DNA from: a virus
Reading direction: 5' to 3' (one strand)
IMG/VR virus record: IMGVR_UViG_3300047174_000168
Location: 1 to 39,826 of that record
DNA length: 39,826 bases
The position numbers were made by a program, and so were the translations under genes. This document shows, in pieces, positions 1,039-39,826 of this stretch. The notes below the pieces were generated by a model, which was given only the letters and a program-made list of their open reading frames with translations, was not told where the DNA came from and made no database searches. The first letter of the stretch is position 1. Each line of letters begins with the position of its first letter.

Positions 1039-1518
1039 TTACTTGAGATCCGTCGACGCGGGATGCTCTCCTGCGTCGACGGTTGAATCTCCCAAGGTTG
1101 GCCGCAGAGGCATGTGCGATTCGTCCCACTCCGGCAGCCCGATCAGGCCGTCGCGCTCGATCAGCCGCGGAACTTTGGAGACGAGGTGGTATCGTATGCC
1201 GTCCAGCACATTCCAGAAGCGGCGCTTGTCTTTCGGGGCGAAGCCGCCATCCGTAATGGCCTTTGCGATGGCGTTGCGTTCGGAGAAGACTCCCTCGCGG
1301 TTCAGATAATCGAGGATCGCATCGATGGCCTTACGGTGCGCCGCATACTGCGACGCGTGGTGCAGCGTGCCCGAAAGCTCTTCCATCACGCGGATCGCCG
1401 CGCTGACGCGGACGTACTCCTGCATCTCGGTTGGAGCGAGCTTCAGCAACGCCGCCTCAAGGCGTCTTCGCCGGTCGCGCAACAGGTTCAGCGAGTCGTA
1501 GATTTCCGTTGATTTCAT
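1039..1518 (-). CDS. Unknown protein, coiled coil plus winged-helix-like region
   Basis: 159 residues, starting at the ATG just downstream of the neighbouring gene's stop. The first 45 residues are charged and helical. Residues about 65-135 have the spacing of a winged-helix domain (helix, NAIAKAITDGGF, then a helix ending in GLIGLPEWDE), a pattern seen in small winged-helix modules whose sequences end in 'GLxEW'. No catalytic motif is visible. It is the last gene of a four-gene - strand cluster (1039-3001) between the tail genes and attP, and converges on the lipoprotein gene. Function unknown; DNA or protein binding is an inference. Confidence 0.6.
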   Translation of the reverse strand: MKSTEIYDSLNLLRDRRRRLEAALLKLAPTEMQEYVRVSAAIRVMEELSGTLHHASQYAAHRKAIDAILDYLNREGVFSERNAIAKAITDGGFAPKDKRRFWNVLDGIRYHLVSKVPRLIERDGLIGLPEWDESHMPLRPTLGDSTVDAGEHPASTDLK

Positions 1519-1529
1519 CGTTATCGAGC

Positions 1530-2033
1530 CTACAGCATTTGGTGGAGGTGGTCTAAGATTTGCGGGTCGGCGTGGCCGCTGAAGAGCGTCGTCGCGCGGC
1601 GCTCCATCTCCCAGTAAAGGTTGGTCGCAATCCTCGAGCAGGAGTGCGGAAGATCGCGTATAAACCATCGGATAACTCCTTCGACCAGTGAGCAGGCGAT
1701 GTAGAAACTGATGAGGATCGAACGGCTGGTGAGATAGCGGATGTCGTCTCGTTCGATCTCTCCGGAGAGCACGAGGTGCTGGCAGAGCTGCACCAGAAGC
1801 TTCGCGTTCGATCGCTTTCGCAGTAGACCTCGCCAGCGACCCGACTCTGACCAGAACTGCGCGTCATCGCCGATCAGGTCGCACTGGTCGGCTACGAACC
1901 GTTCTATTCTGTCGGATTCGTTGCGGTGCAGTCGTTCGATCAGTGTGAGCGCCGGCAGAAGCCTGCGTTGCTTGAGGCGGAGAACCCAGACGGCGAAGGC
2001 AAGCAAGACGAAAAACAGTGCGAGGAGGGCCAT
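1530..2033 (-). CDS. Membrane-anchored protein of unknown function
   Basis: 167 residues. I chose the ATG at 2033 because GGAG lies 8 bases upstream and the previous gene ends at 2035; a longer frame exists but overlaps that gene. The N terminus is a single membrane helix (MALLALFFVLLAFAVWVL) followed by basic residues (KQRR), predicting a cytoplasmic C-terminal part. A second hydrophobic stretch lies at about residues 105-125. The soluble part is helical with many Arg and Asp/Glu residues and no motif I recognise. Gene order and tight spacing suggest it acts with the seven-helix protein encoded directly upstream. Confidence 0.6.
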   Translation of the reverse strand: MALLALFFVLLAFAVWVLRLKQRRLLPALTLIERLHRNESDRIERFVADQCDLIGDDAQFWSESGRWRGLLRKRSNAKLLVQLCQHLVLSGEIERDDIRYLTSRSILISFYIACSLVEGVIRWFIRDLPHSCSRIATNLYWEMERRATTLFSGHADPQILDHLHQML

Positions 2034-2034
2034 A

Positions 2035-2781
2035 TTATTTGCTCCGTTGAGCTCTATGAATTTCCGGAACATCGAGTCGATCCCGCACGACAGCGGCAAT
2101 CTCGCGCGGGTTCGAGGTTTGGGGGAGGTTCTGGACCCGCATCAGCGTGATGCAGTAGGCGGCCCAGCAAGGAATAACGGCGATTTGCGCGAACGTGTCG
2201 ATCGCGGAGGCGTGGCGCAACCAACGCGTCATGGCATAGGCGCTGAGACACCGCACCATCGTTCCGGAAAGAAAGATGAGCGCGATGCGCAGGGGTAGCC
2301 GGGGCCACGCAAACCCGAACAGGGAGGCGGAAGCAAACAGCGTCAGCCCGAACGTTCCCCATGCGACGTAGGTGCAACGGTTCAGCAGCAGCACCGTTGC
2401 TGTAATCGCGAAGGTCGGCGGATCGCCCTGTGCGGCCATCCAGACGCAGCCGACGGTCACGATCAGCGCTGAGGTTAGAAAACCCACGCTCAGTCCCGGC
2501 GGCGCGTAGCGGACAGCGGGTATCGCGGAGAGGATGTCGTAGATCGCGCCAAGGCCCAGCACGGACTCCGCTGCGGATGCGTACCAGTAGAGGTAGAAGT
2601 AGATTGCATAGTCGTGCCGGAAGAAAAACGTTGCGATGGAAGAGGTGCAGCCGAGCGCCGTCAGCGAGAAAAGAAAGCGCCATCGCCGCACCAGGCGTTT
2701 GTTTGCCATCACGAAGATCAGCGCGGCCTGAGCAGCGAACGTGGCTGCCCAGACCGCATATTGCAAGACGCTGATTTTCAT
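2035..2781 (-). CDS. Seven-helix membrane protein of unknown function
   Basis: 248 residues. About seven hydrophobic segments can be counted (near residues 5-26, 34-52, 60-85, 98-118, 125-155, 163-185 and 195-215), ending in a charged tail of about 30 residues. There are no obvious transporter or receptor motifs. Aromatic and Cys residues are scattered in the helices. It lies between the exported peptide gene (2807-3001) and another membrane protein gene (1530-2033), all read leftward. The trio looks like a membrane system, for example a surface-modifying or exclusion function carried by the prophage; this is inference from location and topology only. Confidence 0.65.
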   Translation of the reverse strand: MKISVLQYAVWAATFAAQAALIFVMANKRLVRRWRFLFSLTALGCTSSIATFFFRHDYAIYFYLYWYASAAESVLGLGAIYDILSAIPAVRYAPPGLSVGFLTSALIVTVGCVWMAAQGDPPTFAITATVLLLNRCTYVAWGTFGLTLFASASLFGFAWPRLPLRIALIFLSGTMVRCLSAYAMTRWLRHASAIDTFAQIAVIPCWAAYCITLMRVQNLPQTSNPREIAAVVRDRLDVPEIHRAQRSK

Positions 2782-2806
2782 GGCTGGCCGCCGATCTTGA
2801 GCTCTC

Positions 2807-3001
2807 TTACTTCGAGTGCGGAGGGCTCTTGACGGGCGGATTGGAGGGATCGCAGTTGGGCGCGGTTGGCGGGCACAGCGGAATCGGACCCCCGCCGGCG
2901 CTTGCGATGGGTGCGGCGTTTGCGGTGGTCGGTTTGGAGGAGATGGACAGCAGTGTAAGCCCCAGAATCGAGCCCAGGACGATTGCGATTCGACGATTCA
3001 T
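2807..3001 (-). CDS. Small exported Pro/Ser-rich peptide
   Basis: 64 residues from the ATG at 3001, which has GGAG 8 bases upstream. The N terminus is a clear Sec signal peptide: MNRR, a hydrophobic core IAIVLGSILGLTLL, and an Ala-rich cleavage region ending in ANA before AP. The mature peptide is about 38 residues, rich in Pro, Ser and Gly, with two Cys residues (LCPPTAPNCDP) that could form a disulfide. It is the first gene of the - strand cluster beside attP. Function unknown. A longer frame reaching 3046 exists, but this start gives the proper signal peptide. Confidence 0.6.
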   Translation of the reverse strand: MNRRIAIVLGSILGLTLLSISSKPTTANAAPIASAGGGPIPLCPPTAPNCDPSNPPVKSPPHSK

Positions 3002-3180
3002 TTTCTTGCTCCGTGCGTAGGTACGCACCTGCAAGATAGCGCTCATCGTGACATAGCAAAAATACGTTCGTTTTCATTGTCACAAGAGTGGTAACCCCTC
3101 TCGGTTCATAGCGTCAACAATTTTTTGGACTACGCGCCGGTAACGGTACGAAGGTATGGCCTTCGCTTCGCGTACGGAGA

Positions 3181-3303: not shown

Positions 3304-3348
3304 TGGTGGACGCGGTAGGGATCGAACCTACGACCAGTCGATTAAGAG
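3304..3348 (-). other. att core: 3' half of a tRNA-Lys(CUU) gene
   Basis: Read on the - strand, the segment starts with the anticodon loop CTCTTAA (anticodon CUU), then the 3' anticodon stem TCGAC, variable loop TGGTC, T stem and loop GTAGG TTCGATC CCTAC, the acceptor strand CGCGTCC, discriminator A and an encoded CCA. The expected 5' half (D arm, 5' acceptor, 5' anticodon stem) is absent; the bases upstream do not pair with TCGAC. This is therefore a tRNA fragment kept by a phage to rebuild the host tRNA on integration. It sits just downstream of the integrase gene and predicts that the phage inserts into the host tRNA-Lys(CUU) gene. Confidence 0.85.
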
Positions 3349-3391: not shown

Positions 3392-4540
3392 TTACTGAAT
3401 CCTGTCGCTGGGGTGACCAAAAATGTGCCCAGGGGCACGGTAGCGAGCGGAGGTTCTGCGGTTGCGCTCGTTGATTGCATCGTTCAAGGCGGCGATGTCC
3501 GGGTGTTGATAGGGCTTCATCGACTTGATGTCGGCGTGGCCCATCGACTTGGACACCGCGAAGATGTTGCCGGTGGCGGCCATCGTCTCCGTCCCATAGG
3601 TGTGCCGCGCGGAGTACGGCACGATCGCAGGATCCACGCCGGCACGCAAGCGAGCGGCGCGGAAGCCCTTCGCGATCGTCTCCACATGGCCTGACGCGGC
3701 CTGGGCCGAGGGAAAAACCCAGCCCGAGTCGCGGCCCATGCACCACGCAGAGAGGAGCTGCTTCATGCGGTCGCTCATGCCTACGAAGCGAGTCGCATTC
3801 GGCGTCTTGCCGGTGGGTACCCAGATGCGATCGTGCTCCCAGTGGAGGTCTTCGATCCGCATGGGAAATACCTCGTCCGGGCGCATGCCCGTATCCTGCA
3901 GGATGACGAAGATGAGCCATGCCCGCTCTCGACGGCCGCGCACCCACGGGTTGGGCTCTGCCGTGCCGAAGGCGCATTGCAGTGCGACTTCGGCGGCCTG
4001 GCTGACCATGCGGTCTCGGCCTCGGGTGGGCATGCGGTCGAAGTGTGGGCGTTGCGGGATCAGCTTCCACTCCTGCGCTTTGCCGAACATGACGCTGAGC
4101 GTGCGGATGGCCTGGTTGATGTAGGTCGCGCTGCACGCGACCGTCTCTCCGGTGGGTTCTCCGGAGCGGCGATCGATGACCGGACGCGTGAAGGTGGTGC
4201 ACTCCACGGTGTCCGACTGGATGGATTCAAGCGTCATGTTTGCCAGTGCCGTAAAGCTGAGCAGCCGCCAGCCGTACCGGTAGAACTTCTTGCTGTTGGA
4301 GGTGAGCTTCCAGCTTTTATCGACCCACTCGAGGAAGCGGGCAGAGAACTGCTGGAGCGTGGGCGGCCGGCTGCGGCGCTGGTCGGGCCGGAGCCCTTCC
4401 TCCAGCCGGGTTAGGGCGGCATTCTCTACCTGAAACGCCGCGGTTCTGGTGGTCTGGTGCGTACTGGCCCGGTAGCGCCGCCCCTGAAAGTAAAACGTGT
4501 ACCACCAGTGTTTGCTGGTGCCTTTTTTATAAAGCGACAT
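3392..4540 (-). CDS. int: Tyrosine recombinase, phage integrase
   Basis: 382 residues, normal for the family. It should catalyse integration and, with the excisionase, excision at attP. An N-terminal SAM-like arm and core-binding region (about residues 1-165) is followed by the catalytic domain. Visible active-site residues are Arg220 in GMRPDEV, Lys245, Arg312 in SARHT, His335 in MGH and the nucleophile Tyr344 in KPYQHPD. The usual His three residues before Arg312 is Tyr, a known variant. The gene ends 43 bases from the att core. Its start overlaps the end of the excisionase-like gene by 14 bases, so both are expressed from the - strand promoter near 4771-4799. The last residues read GHIFGHPSDRIQ. 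Confidence 0.95.
   Translation of the reverse strand: MSLYKKGTSKHWWYTFYFQGRRYRASTHQTTRTAAFQVENAALTRLEEGLRPDQRRSRPPTLQQFSARFLEWVDKSWKLTSNSKKFYRYGWRLLSFTALANMTLESIQSDTVECTTFTRPVIDRRSGEPTGETVACSATYINQAIRTLSVMFGKAQEWKLIPQRPHFDRMPTRGRDRMVSQAAEVALQCAFGTAEPNPWVRGRRERAWLIFVILQDTGMRPDEVFPMRIEDLHWEHDRIWVPTGKTPNATRFVGMSDRMKQLLSAWCMGRDSGWVFPSAQAASGHVETIAKGFRAARLRAGVDPAIVPYSARHTYGTETMAATGNIFAVSKSMGHADIKSMKPYQHPDIAALNDAINERNRRTSARYRAPGHIFGHPSDRIQ
3412..3432 (+). repeat. Direct repeat copy B, candidate integrase arm site
   Basis: GGTGACCAAAAATGTGCCCA followed by G, partner of the repeat at 3181-3201. It lies within the last codons of the integrase gene (encoding the GHIFGH segment), 63 bases from the att core. 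See the entry for copy A. Confidence 0.4.
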
Positions 4541-4748
4541 CGCTCGTCTCCTCGCACCTTTGCCGGGCAGGAAAGGAGAAGCGTCGCTCCGCTACATACC
4601 TTTGTATGTCCTCAAGAGGATACTTCACGCTGCGCGCGGTAAGCGCGACAAAGTTGGGGCCGGTGCGGGCGCACCGCCAAGCACGCAGGGTTCCGGGCTT
4701 TACGCCGATCAGTTCCGCCGCCTGGCGGGTGGAGAGTAGTTTCGTCAT
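4527..4748 (-). CDS. xis: Excisionase-like MerR-type HTH protein
   Basis: 73 residues from the ATG at 4748; an alternative ATG lies at 4757. The N-terminal half, LSTRQAAELIGVKPGTLRAW, is the standard winged HTH of small excisionase/AlpA-type DNA-binding proteins, followed by a wing (FVALTARSVKYPLEDIQRYV). The protein would bind near attP and direct excision, and may also regulate its own promoter. It is upstream of and overlaps int, the typical xis-int order. An ACATAC/GTATGT inverted repeat (4594-4609) lies within its coding region. Confidence 0.8.
   Translation of the reverse strand: MTKLLSTRQAAELIGVKPGTLRAWRCARTGPNFVALTARSVKYPLEDIQRYVAERRFSFPARQRCEETSDVAL
4594..4609. promoter_or_regulatory. 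Operator-like inverted repeat ACATAC-CTTT-GTATGT
   Basis: A perfect 6-bp inverted repeat with a 4-bp centre inside the excisionase gene. Its left part, CATACCTTTGTA, matches CATACCTTCGTA at 4755-4766 with one mismatch. The shared motif suggests one regulator binds both places. Confidence 0.4.
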
Positions 4749-4754
4749 AGGTCT

Positions 4755-4774
4755 CATACCTTCGTAGGTAGATA
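4755..4774. promoter_or_regulatory. Operator-like site in the divergent control region
   Basis: Contains CATACCTTCGTA and the near-palindrome TACCTTCGTAGGTA (12 of 14 positions symmetric, 4757-4770). It overlaps the predicted start of the leftward transcript and touches its -10 element at 4771-4776, so a bound repressor would block int/xis expression. A reversed relative, TAAAGGTATGA, lies at 4851-4861 over the start codon of the rightward regulator. Confidence 0.45.
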
Positions 4775-4799
4775 TACCTGCAAAGAAGTTTTCTGTAAA
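4771..4799 (-). promoter_or_regulatory. Leftward promoter for xis-int
   Basis: On the - strand: TTTACA (-35, 4794-4799), a 17-bp spacer and TATATC (-10, 4771-4776). Transcription would start near 4764, just upstream of the excisionase-like gene. Match to the sigma-70 consensus is good but not perfect. Confidence 0.5.
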
Positions 4800-4807
4800 C
4801 TTTTTTC

Positions 4808-4836
4808 TTGACATCTGGAAAATACAGGCATAGATT
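4808..4836 (+). promoter_or_regulatory. Rightward early promoter
   Basis: TTGACA (-35, perfect consensus, 4808-4813), a 17-bp spacer and TAGATT (-10, 4831-4836). Transcription would begin near 4843, about 15 bases before the regulator gene at 4858, and continue into the early operon. It lies back to back with the leftward promoter, like a lysis/lysogeny control region. Confidence 0.6.
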
Positions 4837-4850
4837 CGCATCTGTTCGGG

Positions 4851-13752: not shown

Positions 13753-15030
13753 TTGGTATACGAGATCGCAAACGCGGCGCTGGACCATGGTCCGCGCAAC
13801 AGGCCACGTCTGCGCCTGCTGCTGCTGGCGCTGGCGCGCCATGCGGATGAGTATGGCTTTGCCTACCCGTCCGTCGAGACGCTGGCGGAGAAGGCGCTGT
13901 GCGACGAACGCACGGTGAGCCGCATCCTGGACGAGCTGGAGCGCGGTGGATGGATCGCTGTGAGGCGCAAGGCGGTGTCTGGGAGGCACAATGCATACTT
14001 CATGAACCTGGCGAAGCTGAACGTTCGTCTGTGGCCCTCTGGAAGCTGCAGAGCGCCGGAGAAACAAAGGCCTCGACAGCTGTTGCACACGCAGCTGCTG
14101 CGGGTAAAGAGTGTAGTCTTCGCAAGCGCCGGAGGATCGGCGATCGGCGAAGCGGGATCGGCAGCGACCGAGCCTGGGGTAGGAGCAGCAAGAGCAGTGC
14201 CCGCAAGCGGTGTGACGCAACCACCGATCGGCGGGCAAGGACAGCAAGGCGGGGTAAGCGATGTGGAGAGCGACGGCTCTTCACCGATCGACCACGCGGG
14301 GAGCGACGCGGTAGGTTCACCGGGCGTTCTCGAATCGCAGCAAGGCGAGGCAAGCGGTTTGGAGAGTTTTCCACCGATCGGCCTCGCGCGGGATGACGGA
14401 GAAATCCCACCAGACATTTCGAGCATTCCCACCGGACATTTTGACCATTCCCACCGGACATTTTGCCCGCCCCTTTTAATTAAAGAATGTAATGAAGTAG
14501 AAAGACAACAACCCCCATACTCCGTAGGTTCTTTCCCCAAGTGTGGAAAAGTGCAAAAGCCAAAACTGCCTGGTGAAGGGCAAAGCGCGGGATTCGAGCC
14601 GCATGGGCAAACCCGCAACGGCGAAGGCGGCGCCCAGCGAGAACGAACAACGGCAAGTGCGCGAGGGGACCGGCGAGCGTGGGCACGGATGGAGCGCGAA
14701 GCAGGCATGTGCGAGGTGGCCGGCGTGGCCGTCGCTGCGGGCAGCGTGATGCGAGCGTGCGGCTTTACCGATTCGCGAATGCTGCAGGTGCTGGTGCAGG
14801 CGATGCAGGCCCGGCTGGCGGAGGATCGTGCAGCCGAGGTGCGCGACGTGGAGGCGAGTATGGTGCGCCAGTGGCGAGACTTCTGCGGCATACCAACGCA
14901 CGCGCTGCTGTGGCCGATGTCTGCGAAGAAGTTCTTCTGCGATGGGATTTGGGCCCGCGATGCGATGTGGCCGATCGACTGGGCGAAGATTCGGAGAGCC
15001 GGAACCGGCATGAATATCGCTTATGGATAA
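13753..15030 (+). CDS. Replication initiator-like protein with internal origin
   Basis: 425 residues. The only start in frame near the 5' end is TTG 13753, with GAGG about 7 bases upstream. Residues about 15-90 form a winged HTH (RLRLLLLALARHADEYGFAYPSVETLAEKALCDERTVSRIL...), the type used by phage O-like initiators. A Gly/Ser-rich linker (about 95-290) follows, and then a charged helical C-terminal domain (DRRAWARMEREAGM...AMWPIDWAKI). The linker DNA holds three 22-bp iterons and an AT-rich run (14401-14507). The arrangement is like lambda O, where the origin sits inside the gene. No helicase or helicase loader is seen in the window, so the host replisome is probably recruited directly. Confidence 0.75.
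   Translation: MVYEIANAALDHGPRNRPRLRLLLLALARHADEYGFAYPSVETLAEKALCDERTVSRILDELERGGWIAVRRKAVSGRHNAYFMNLAKLNVRLWPSGSCRAPEKQRPRQLLHTQLLRVKSVVFASAGGSAIGEAGSAATEPGVGAARAVPASGVTQPPIGGQGQQGGVSDVESDGSSPIDHAGSDAVGSPGVLESQQGEASGLESFPPIGLARDDGEIPPDISSIPTGHFDHSHRTFCPPLLIKECNEVERQQPPYSVGSFPKCGKVQKPKLPGEGQSAGFEPHGQTRNGEGGAQRERTTASARGDRRAWARMEREAGMCEVAGVAVAAGSVMRACGFTDSRMLQVLVQAMQARLAEDRAAEVRDVEASMVRQWRDFCGIPTHALLWPMSAKKFFCDGIWARDAMWPIDWAKIRRAGTGMNIAYG
14401..14507 (+). repeat. Three 22-bp iterons and AT-rich stretch, candidate phage origin
   Basis: Units at 14401-14422, 14423-14444 and 14445-14466 share TCCCACCRGACATTTY. Units 2 and 3 are nearly identical; unit 1 has a few changes. The period is exactly 22 bp (two helical turns) and is not a multiple of 3, so the three units are read in three different frames. 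Directly downstream, 14472-14507 is AT-rich (TTTTAATTAAAGAATGTAAT) in an otherwise GC-rich gene. Iterons beside an AT-rich DNA unwinding element inside an initiator gene are the classic form of a lambda-like origin. Confidence 0.75.
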
Positions 15031-36204: not shown

Positions 36205-39200
36205 ATGAAACGACTGCTTCTAGCGGCCGCCGCGCTCCTGTGCGTCTTTGCAGCCGGTTGCCCTGCCGACGCGCAGATGACCACCGTCACCGCAACGAAC
36301 CTTGCGTTGAGTGGGCAGCCGATCGCCAACGGCACCGCCACGTTTACGGCAGTCGACGGAACGGGCCAGCCGATCAGCTTCACGGGTGGCAATGGGGCGT
36401 TCAATCTGGCGGGCGCGTTCAGTTGCACCATCACGGCGGGTGCGCTCTCCGGCTGTCAGGTTCCGGATGCCTGCCTCACCACGCCTGCCAACATCCTGTA
36501 TACGGTCCAGATCAGCAGCGCGGGCCATGCCTACTTCCTGGCGAAGACTCCGGGCATCTGCGGCGCGACGTACACGCTGGGCAGCGTCTCGACGGCGGTG
36601 GCGCTGGTTGCCACCCTGGTGGCCACGGCTCCCAGCGGAACCTGCACCATGCCCGCGCTCGACATCAGTACGACCCCGCCCAACGCGTTTATGTGCATCG
36701 GCACCACCTGGGTGCCTATCATCGGCGCGGGAGCGGTCACCTTCTCGGGGAGCTACAACGCGGGCACAAGCTACTCGCAGTACGCGCTGGTCTCGGCTGG
36801 CGGATACACCTACATCTCTAACCTCAACGGCAACCTGGGCAACACACCCGCGACCAGTCCGACGCAGTGGACGCCGCTCGGAACTGTTGGGCCCGCTGGT
36901 CCGCCGGGTGTGCCCGGGGCCGCTGCAAACTTTACGATCGGCACCGTGGCCGCGCTTGCCGCAGGTGCTACGCCGACGGTCACCATCGGTGGAACCGCGC
37001 CAAATTACGTCCTGAACCTCGGGATTCCGGTCGGGCAGGCGGGAACGAATGGTGCACCCGGAGCGACGCCGACATTCACCATTGGCACGGTTACCGGTCT
37101 GGCTTATGGATTTGCTCCGACCGCATCCTTGGGGGGAACTGCGCCGAACTATCTGCTCAATCTTGGCATCCCGGCAGGCGCGGCGGGTGCAAACGGCACG
37201 CCCGGAACGAATGGCACCAACGGCGCGAATGGCGCGACGCCCATCCTCACCGTGGGAACCGTGACGCAGCTTGCGGCGGGATCGACGCCAACCTTCACCA
37301 TCACCGGCACCGCGCCGAACTACACCGTCAATATCGGCATCCCGGCGGGCGCAGCGGGTGCAAACGGCACACCCGGAACGAATGGCACCAACGGCACGAA
37401 TGGTGCGACGCCGGTCCTCAGCGTCGGCACCGTGACGCAGCTTGCGGCGGGATCGACGCCAACCTTCACCATCACCGGCACCGCGCCAAATTACACCGTC
37501 AATATCGGCATCCCGGCGGGCGCGACCGGTCCCGCTGGTCCGCTCAGCTACACAGCCATATCCTCGCAGTCGGCTGCGACCTACGCCATCACCTCATCGG
37601 ATTGCAACCAGCAAGGGTCGGAGGTGCAGTTCACCTCGTCAACCGGCACGGCGATCACGTTGCCCACAACCGGCGTCACCGCTGGATGCGTCGTGCGCAT
37701 CAAGAACCTCGTCGCCGGACAGACACTCGCCATCACGCCCGCGAGCGGCACCATCGATCAGGATGCCTCGCTCAATATCAGCTATCCCGGCGATGGCGAG
37801 TTCTTCTTCACCGGAGCGACCACCGGCATCACCTGGCTCGGCTTCGGCGGCTACGGCGTGCGCGGTGCCTCCGCGCTGACCACGCTGTATGCCGCGCCCT
37901 ACGTCTCGAACATCGGCAGGCTCGGCCAGGTCGCCATCAATGGCCTCGCGAAGTACGGCCCTACCGGGCCGCCAACCGCCGCGCTGCCGGGCACGGACTA
38001 CGAGCCCGACTACATGCGCGAGCGTGGCATGTCGAGCGCTCCCACGCTGCCCATGTCGGAGGAAGGCATCGGCGCGGTGCCGTACACCTACGGCGCGGCC
38101 ATCGGCCTGCGCTACTTCGTCGATGCCTGCCTCGGCTCGGACTCGAACGATGGCCGGTCGGAGGTCTTCCCCTGGAAGACGCTGGCGCACGTCGGCGTAA
38201 CGCCTGCGATCTTCGGCCCGGATACGACCGTCCTGCTGCACGATAACTGCGTCTTCCATGACGAACTGCTGCTCGGCAATAATGTCACCGCGACGGGCAG
38301 CACCACGCTCACCTCCAATCCACCTGCGTTCAGCGGCACGCCTGGGCATCCTGTCGTCATCACCAGCTATGGCCCGCAAGGCCCGGCGCTGATCGATGGC
38401 TCGGACGCAATCGTCGCCACCTGGACCGCCGTTAGCGGCCAGACGACCGTCTTCCAGGCGACGCTGCCCTCCGTCGCGACCACCAACGTCGCTTACGCCA
38501 GCGGCACCTTCACCGTCACGCTGCCCGCCGCAAGAACCTACATTCAGAACTCAGAGGTATCGCTGGTCAACTGCACCAACGCGGACTTCGACGGCACCGG
38601 CGCGATCATCACCTCGACGACCGGCAACATCCGGCCCAGCAACGTCTTCACGATCACCGGCATCGCGGCACCGGCGGAAAGCAGCTCGCTCGGATGCGGC
38701 GTCGTCTTTATGCCGCGCAAACTCTATGTCGACCAGGGCGATGCTGCCAATCCCGAGTTCCCGTTGCAGACGCAGCCACTCACCGCGGAGCATAACTACG
38801 CGGGATGCTGGGCTGCGAGCACGAAATACAACTTCCTCGACTCCGTCTCAAGCTGCGCGGCGACGCCTGTCTTCTCGCTCTACTTGGAGCAGGAGTCCGG
38901 CTCCGATGCCTCCATCGCTGCCGGGCCTACCATTACGCCGTTCAACCAGGCTGCGGTCTCGGACACAAACACCGGCCTGCAGAACGTAATCGCCAACTCG
39001 GGCAGTTGGTACGCCTCTGGCAGCACCATCTATGTGCATCTCGCGACCGGCGACAACCCGGGCGGCCACACCATCGAGGGTGTTCAGCGAGTCTTTGGCG
39101 TGGCGTTGCTGAGCGTCAACGACGTCACCGTGGATGGCATCGCGGTGGAGCGGACGCAGGGTCCAGCCATCGCCAGCGGCGTCTTCACCAACCCGACGCT

Positions 39201-39826
39201 CGCGGGGGCATACACCACCGGAAACGACATCACCATCCAGAACTCCATCGTGGTGAACTACTCGGACTCCGGCTTCCCGAACGTCTGGCAGCAGGGCGGT
39301 GCTGGCACCAAGCTCTTCGGTGCGGGCTCGGCTGGCATCAACGGCGGTATCCTCATCGCGGGGTACCAGGCAAGCTGCCTCTGCGCTCCGCAGATTCAGA
39401 ACCCGACGATCCTCAACAACTCGGTCGGGCAGTTCGACGATCCGTGGGCGTTCTCTTCGTTTCAGAAGGTGGGCGTCGGCCTCTTCGGCTTCAATAACGG
39501 CACGATCAGCGGCAACTTTGTCGCGACCACGTTCGACACGGCCATCAGCTCCACCTACGCGAGCAGCCCCGGAAACACCGGCCTGACGATGGCCTATAAC
39601 TATACGACGAACTCCAACATCAACTACTCGATCGCGGCCACGCAGAACGCCGTCTTCCACCACAACCGCGCGCTCAGCTCCTCTGGCGAGGGCCTGCAGA
39701 CCGGCGGCGCGGTCATCAGCCAGTCGACGCCCGCGAATGGCTTCCCGGCTGGCACGGAGTGGTGCGACACCAACATCCTCGCTTACGACAACGTGATGGC
39801 CTACCTCGCGCCCAGCCTGGGCAACG
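36205..39826 (+). CDS. Tailspike-like protein with collagen-like and beta-helix parts, truncated
   Basis: The gene is open at the window end after 1207 codons plus one base. ATG 36205 has AGAAGGA upstream. The N terminus MKRLLLAAAALLCVFAAGCPADAQ is a signal peptide with either an ADA cleavage site or a weak lipobox (AAGC). Then come a beta-rich region, a GPAGPPGVPG stretch and four modules of 48-57 residues with TAPNY..N.GIP and (NGT)n Gly-rich runs (36928-37540). From about residue 630, FVDACLGSDSNDGRS...PWKTLAHVGV starts a right-handed parallel beta-helix, typical of tailspikes and polysaccharide lyases. It could bind and degrade host capsule or EPS. The rest continues beyond base 39826. 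Confidence 0.7.
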   Translation, partial: MKRLLLAAAALLCVFAAGCPADAQMTTVTATNLALSGQPIANGTATFTAVDGTGQPISFTGGNGAFNLAGAFSCTITAGALSGCQVPDACLTTPANILYTVQISSAGHAYFLAKTPGICGATYTLGSVSTAVALVATLVATAPSGTCTMPALDISTTPPNAFMCIGTTWVPIIGAGAVTFSGSYNAGTSYSQYALVSAGGYTYISNLNGNLGNTPATSPTQWTPLGTVGPAGPPGVPGAAANFTIGTVAALAAGATPTVTIGGTAPNYVLNLGIPVGQAGTNGAPGATPTFTIGTVTGLAYGFAPTASLGGTAPNYLLNLGIPAGAAGANGTPGTNGTNGANGATPILTVGTVTQLAAGSTPTFTITGTAPNYTVNIGIPAGAAGANGTPGTNGTNGTNGATPVLSVGTVTQLAAGSTPTFTITGTAPNYTVNIGIPAGATGPAGPLSYTAISSQSAATYAITSSDCNQQGSEVQFTSSTGTAITLPTTGVTAGCVVRIKNLVAGQTLAITPASGTIDQDASLNISYPGDGEFFFTGATTGITWLGFGGYGVRGASALTTLYAAPYVSNIGRLGQVAINGLAKYGPTGPPTAALPGTDYEPDYMRERGMSSAPTLPMSEEGIGAVPYTYGAAIGLRYFVDACLGSDSNDGRSEVFPWKTLAHVGVTPAIFGPDTTVLLHDNCVFHDELLLGNNVTATGSTTLTSNPPAFSGTPGHPVVITSYGPQGPALIDGSDAIVATWTAVSGQTTVFQATLPSVATTNVAYASGTFTVTLPAARTYIQNSEVSLVNCTNADFDGTGAIITSTTGNIRPSNVFTITGIAAPAESSSLGCGVVFMPRKLYVDQGDAANPEFPLQTQPLTAEHNYAGCWAASTKYNFLDSVSSCAATPVFSLYLEQESGSDASIAAGPTITPFNQAAVSDTNTGLQNVIANSGSWYASGSTIYVHLATGDNPGGHTIEGVQRVFGVALLSVNDVTVDGIAVERTQGPAIASGVFTNPTLAGAYTTGNDITIQNSIVVNYSDSGFPNVWQQGGAGTKLFGAGSAGINGGILIAGYQASCLCAPQIQNPTILNNSVGQFDDPWAFSSFQKVGVGLFGFNNGTISGNFVATTFDTAISSTYASSPGNTGLTMAYNYTTNSNINYSIAATQNAVFHHNRALSSSGEGLQTGGAVISQSTPANGFPAGTEWCDTNILAYDNVMAYLAPSLGN
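36928..37542 (+). repeat. Four collagen-like tailspike modules
   Basis: Modules start at 36928 (48 codons), 37072 and 37243 (57 codons each) and 37414 (partial). Each reads roughly VGTVxxLAAGxTPTxTIxGTAPNYxxNxGIP, then a Gly-rich loop such as GANGTPGTNGTNG. Modules 3 and 4 are almost identical at DNA level over about 130 bp, so they arose by recent duplication, and can gain or lose copies by recombination. Confidence 0.85.

Follow-up and report, generated by a model that had tools for sequence, protein, structure and literature searches.

The window analyzed here is the whole 39,826-nt stretch of the IMG/VR virus record IMGVR_UViG_3300047174_000168, a 39.8-kb record of a temperate siphophage. 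The terminase, portal, protease, capsid, tape measure, and tail fiber genes lie on the plus strand, and there is a separate minus-strand block. Opposed to the late genes is an uninterrupted minus-strand cassette of four genes arranged head to tail, with gaps of approximately 25, 1, and 11 nt. The first gene (positions 2807 to 3001) encodes a 64-residue micropeptide precursor of the exported type, with an N-terminal signal-like sequence, the core GGGPIPLCPPTAPNC, and two Cys residues. It is followed by genes for a 248-residue receptor-like seven-helix membrane protein (7TM; 2035 to 2781), a 167-residue protein that has a single membrane helix at its N terminus and a cytoplasmic domain (1TM; 1530 to 2033), and a 159-residue coiled-coil and winged-helix protein (1039 to 1518) that is a putative DNA-binding output. 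A 45-nt attP core (3304 to 3348, minus strand) exactly matches the final 45 nt at the 3' end of tRNA-Lys(CTT), and on its far side from the cassette are a tyrosine integrase (3392 to 4540, minus strand; Pfam PF00589) and an HTH_17 excisionase-like protein (4527 to 4841, minus strand). An earlier note on this DNA, made from the letters alone, had described four head-to-tail open reading frames opposite to the late genes and beside attP; all four were found at the above positions on the minus strand, and the attP was borne out by the match to the tRNA 3' end and by the adjoining integrase.

Both contig ends fall within coding sequence resembling a tail fiber, and the virus record may be permuted, which would leave the cassette, being continuous, unaffected. 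We assign the virus to a soil bacterium of the Acidobacteriota. Elsewhere in the window, three tandem 22-nt repeats of the GAGAAATCCCACCAGACATTTC type (14399 to 14464) are present inside a replication-initiation O-like gene (13753 to 15030) and by analogy with lambda O are probable origin iterons, and repeats of approximately 93 nt, spaced 144 to 171 nt apart (36938 to 37516) in a tail fiber gene (36205 to 39825), are of the fiber type.

Pfam, NCBIfam, and PADLOC have no family for any of the four proteins, nor do the three larger ones match a PHROG. The earlier note had recognized no known defense or conversion system with this gene order; a known anti-phage defense system was rejected, with no PADLOC match at a threshold of E 0.1. 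Scanning the cassette genes revealed neither a kinase nor a cyclase nor any other known output domain. A full-text search of open papers (subscription papers and preprints being outside its scope) returned no description of the 7TM family and no account of such cell-cell communication in Acidobacteriota. Within what could be searched, these are therefore new: four proteins without a described family, in an architecture without a described system.

The folds proposed in the earlier note for the second and fourth proteins were supported by AlphaFold2, which gave seven membrane helices for the second (pLDDT of 84) and two long helices followed by an H-H-H-E-E arrangement for the fourth (pLDDT of 87), the winged-helix blocks of which were mostly at pLDDT 96 to 98. 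By eye, the positive-inside rule gives the 7TM an N-out/C-in topology. In Foldseek, the leading matches to the 7TM included G protein-coupled receptors (GPCRs) and rhodopsins, all nonsignificant (best E value of 0.24, TM score of approximately 0.46); as no solved 7TM receptor matched its fold significantly, membership of the GPCR/rhodopsin superfamily was rejected. The sole match of the 7TM profile to PDB sequences was the membrane segment of ArcB (E value of 0.0026). Structural matches to the winged helix were likewise nonsignificant only, and the HARE-HTH domain (Pfam PF05066) was rejected for the fourth protein, being matched by 1 of 10 homologs alone (E value of 0.052).

Single-sequence and pattern searches of IMG/VR, GTDB contigs, and phage and plasmid collections gave no matches because the proteins are too divergent, and whole-genome profile searches were therefore needed. 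These were anchored on a prophage-bearing Acidobacteriaceae genome (L129, the same as G048), and most of the other cassettes were located by searching with the winged-helix protein. The full order of peptide, 7TM, 1TM, and winged helix was found at eight further loci in Acidobacteriota genomes (L273, L281, L300, L301, L302, L304, L324, and L325), the 1TM gene of L324 being assigned by position and length rather than by profile score; one genome (G470) bears two cassettes. This recurrence of gene order exceeds chance. The earlier note had taken failure to co-occur in any other genome as grounds against its reading, and the same order at eight other loci removes that objection. Winged-helix homologs are rare, occurring in 7 of 398 genomes by profile and in 11 of 399 by a wider profile. 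At L303, L305, L326, and L327 a winged-helix homolog was present with no recognizable 7TM in the stretch read, some of these homologs being adjacent to a tRNA gene or to the end of a prophage. Among TerL relatives in IMG/VR (47 records tested, many of them fragments), the 7TM was absent even by profile.

Seven of the eight further cassettes are in a prophage context. Six neighbor tail genes that run on the other strand, and the seventh (L273) adjoins a P4-type integrase and early genes. The cassettes of L301, L302, and L304 begin right after tRNA-Lys, tRNA-Thr, and tRNA-Arg genes, respectively, and the tRNA-Lys(CTT) upstream of the L301 cassette, a sister of that in the window, is intact. The cassette of L325 is solitary after a tRNA-Arg gene with no phage genes around it and is apparently a remnant.

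Genes for conversion and exclusion usually occupy the att end of a prophage and run counter to the late genes, as the window cassette does. Since two of its four products are membrane proteins, we considered whether these, with the peptide, might keep other phages from adsorbing or delivering their DNA, or might change the envelope, with the winged-helix protein merely regulating the set; that the L325 cassette has been retained after a tRNA gene with no phage genes nearby is what might be expected of a useful conversion gene. However, the distribution of the 7TM is unlike that of a phage-specific exclusion gene. A 32-sequence profile detected the family in 188 of 200 genomes (94%) of one bacterial family, where a single-sequence search had given matches in 65 of 200, and in the loci read the homologs are mostly outside prophages. 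Given also the lack of a PADLOC match, we consider superinfection exclusion or lysogenic conversion unlikely. Across the phylum, 36 of 297 genomes were positive, nearly all of them already in the family genome set, and none of 34 genomes from other phyla was. Genomes carry several divergent 7TM/peptide copies, and in four host loci (L274, L279, L260, and L230) the pair lies between dnaN and gyrB, in the region of the chromosomal origin of replication.

The window 7TM is a divergent member of this unnamed Acidobacteriota family. The seven phage rows then known clustered in a tree built from 83 7TM proteins, with 2 label changes compared with 6.8 expected and none of 500 shuffles as low, and the window protein grouped with those of L301 and L300 (SH-aLRT of 97). 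A single origin of the phage 7TMs is possible, given the long branches, and the phage versions look old and a lineage apart rather than recent pickups.

The peptide and the 7TM occur together in most of the loci examined in Acidobacteriaceae-type genomes. Under a strict rule (signal-like N terminus plus P.{0,3}C.{1,9}C), 54 of 83 7TM loci had an adjacent motif micropeptide, where the background measured in the remainder of the same DNA, 0.034 per kb per strand, predicts about 3.5; the 83 include seven phage cassettes, and an eighth locus, L225, turned out to be one. A looser rule, for which the background rate was not estimated, added an exported-type Pro-rich micropeptide in 19 of the other 29 loci. 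The host micropeptide gene lies at a variable distance, and because it can be either upstream or downstream of the 7TM gene, the pairing does not reflect one frozen synteny.

Precursors have a median length of 46 residues, and the window peptide and those adjoining 7TM homologs have in common the consensus core [DG]GGPxPxCxPx(2-4)C. Core prolines were found at −4 in 39, at −2 in 40, and at +2 in 35 of 47 peptides, of which only the +2 count is independent of the search rule, which demanded a proline among the four residues preceding the first Cys. Between the window core GGPIPLCPPTAPNC and that of a host peptide (L283, GGPIPLCPPRKPNC) there are two differences, with 12 of 14 positions identical. 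The core is present in three copies in the L226 precursor, in at least two in L223, and in two each in L236 and L272. Tandem core repeats in the precursor of host locus L229 are less clear, and at host loci L224 and L268 two near-identical micropeptide genes are seemingly beside one 7TM gene. Pheromone precursors can have repeated cores or duplicate peptide genes. The window precursor consists of a signal-sequence-like N terminus, from which export is predicted, and the short conserved core. By eye, a signal-peptidase-like site ending in A or G directly precedes the core in approximately 17 of 40 host precursors, and cleavage there would in most give peptides of roughly 12 to 22 residues.

A 1TM-type gene directly follows the 7TM gene in approximately 30 of 73 chromosomal loci. 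Whereas the phage cassettes have the winged-helix protein, the chromosomal loci nearly always lack it and often have in its place a regulator that begins with an HTH and has a C terminus that looks S24-like by eye. This regulator was within approximately 4.5 kb in 22 of the 73, in several gene orders (e.g., L233, L252, L271, L217, and L264).

Just before the Shine-Dalgarno sequence of the window peptide gene is an inverted repeat, GTGCGTA-CC-TACGCAC (3013 to 3028, minus strand). All nine cassettes have a GCGC-N4..6-GCGC element (GCGT-ACCT-ACGC in the window) 25 to 28 nt before the peptide start codon, compared with 5 of 280 control starts, the pattern having been defined post hoc. Predicted folding was stronger than at control starts (P of about 4e-5, n = 7), with the Shine-Dalgarno partly paired and modest covariation of the hairpin. 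The hairpin was not general among host peptide genes, and Rfam had no family for it. Since a perfect copy of GTGCGTANNTACGCAC occurs just once in the window, a phage regulon of such operator sites is unsupported. The repeat may function as an operator or as a hairpin acting on translation, and an RNA hairpin partly hiding the Shine-Dalgarno is no less probable than a DNA operator. A crude scan found no sigma-70-like promoter before the cassette, although promoters of this phylum may differ.

The mostly joint encoding of peptide and 7TM could also mean that the micropeptide is no signal but assists the structure or folding of the 7TM as its partner, the set having a housekeeping membrane function of which phages also make use. 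The host family is near universal in its lineage, which is compatible with such a function as well. However, the motif follows a cleavable-looking signal sequence with little else in the precursor, some precursors have tandem cores, gene order and distance vary, and the phage sets add a winged-helix protein, so that we regard a structural role as distinctly unlikely. A secreted Cys/Pro toxin acting on kin, with the 7TM (and the 1TM) as its immunity protein, would account for a small exported-type Cys peptide beside a polytopic membrane protein and for several divergent copies per genome, but with a core motif strongly conserved across very diverse 7TMs, very short predicted mature peptides, cores repeated within single precursors, and regulators nearby, it is likewise quite unlikely.

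We favor a reading of the cassette as a phage-borne peptide-signaling module, to which we give about an even chance. The precursor would leave the cell through Sec and be cut down to a short Pro-rich peptide, probably disulfide closed, with the N-out/C-in seven-helix protein as its putative receptor. The 1TM protein may relay on the cytoplasmic side to the coil/winged-helix protein, the predicted DNA-binding output, whose target is perhaps the inverted repeat ahead of the peptide gene. A lysogen could in this way sense other lysogens or related peptides of the host and then adjust prophage or host gene expression. Points against this reading are the negative scans for a known output domain and for a promoter, the nonsignificant structural matches of the 7TM and of the winged helix, and the near universality of the host family. 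The earlier note had tentatively proposed such a pathway of exported peptide, receptor, membrane relay, and DNA-binding output. The co-occurrence of the genes, the winged helix, the signal-peptidase-like site, the repeated cores, and the N-out/C-in topology fit that proposal, whereas its suggestion of defense found no support from PADLOC. More tentatively, the phages might run their own version of a lineage-wide peptide/7TM system to control the prophage, sensing lysogen density or eavesdropping on host GGPxPxC pheromones, in the manner of arbitrium with a GPCR-like membrane receptor.

If the pair is a ligand and its receptor, it would represent a new kinase-less class of bacterial peptide signaling, which phages would have adopted in an old lineage of their own. 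The 7TM family is named by no library searched, yet it is present in nearly all of the genomes examined from an abundant family of soil bacteria, and the cassette offers a testable way into cell-cell communication in Acidobacteriota.

The seven helices and N-out/C-in topology are shared with GPCRs and microbial rhodopsins, but the cassette 7TM has neither sequence homology to them nor the retinal lysine of helix 7. If the signaling reading is true, phage peptide communication has analogs in arbitrium and in the agr genes of phiCDHM1. In the arbitrium system (AimP-AimR-AimX) of SPbeta-group phages, one regulator, AimR, binds both peptide and DNA (PMC9232636). The cassette would resemble it in having a phage-encoded peptide of predicted export, a putative dedicated sensor, and a putative DNA-binding output, with phage-phage communication as the proposed common theme, but with a 7TM membrane protein in the putative receptor role and a separate winged-helix protein as the putative output. 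Membership of arbitrium was rejected: no AimR-type protein is present, the three larger proteins match no Pfam, NCBIfam, or PHROG entry, and the sole protein of a DNA-binding type is the 159-residue coil/winged-helix protein. The Clostridioides difficile phage phiCDHM1 bears agrD-agrB-agrC, which include the genes of a processing enzyme, AgrB, and of a histidine kinase, AgrC (PMC3901668). Neither AgrB nor an AgrC histidine kinase domain was found in the cassette genes scanned, excluding agr quorum sensing, and no peptide homology is apparent; the likeness would be that of phage copies of a host peptide-signaling module with a membrane sensor and a homologous system on host chromosomes. For the cassette, that chromosomal counterpart is the set of Acidobacteriota loci with 7TM and micropeptide, in part with a 1TM gene, which have a homologous 7TM, the same peptide motif, and a similar 1TM gene.
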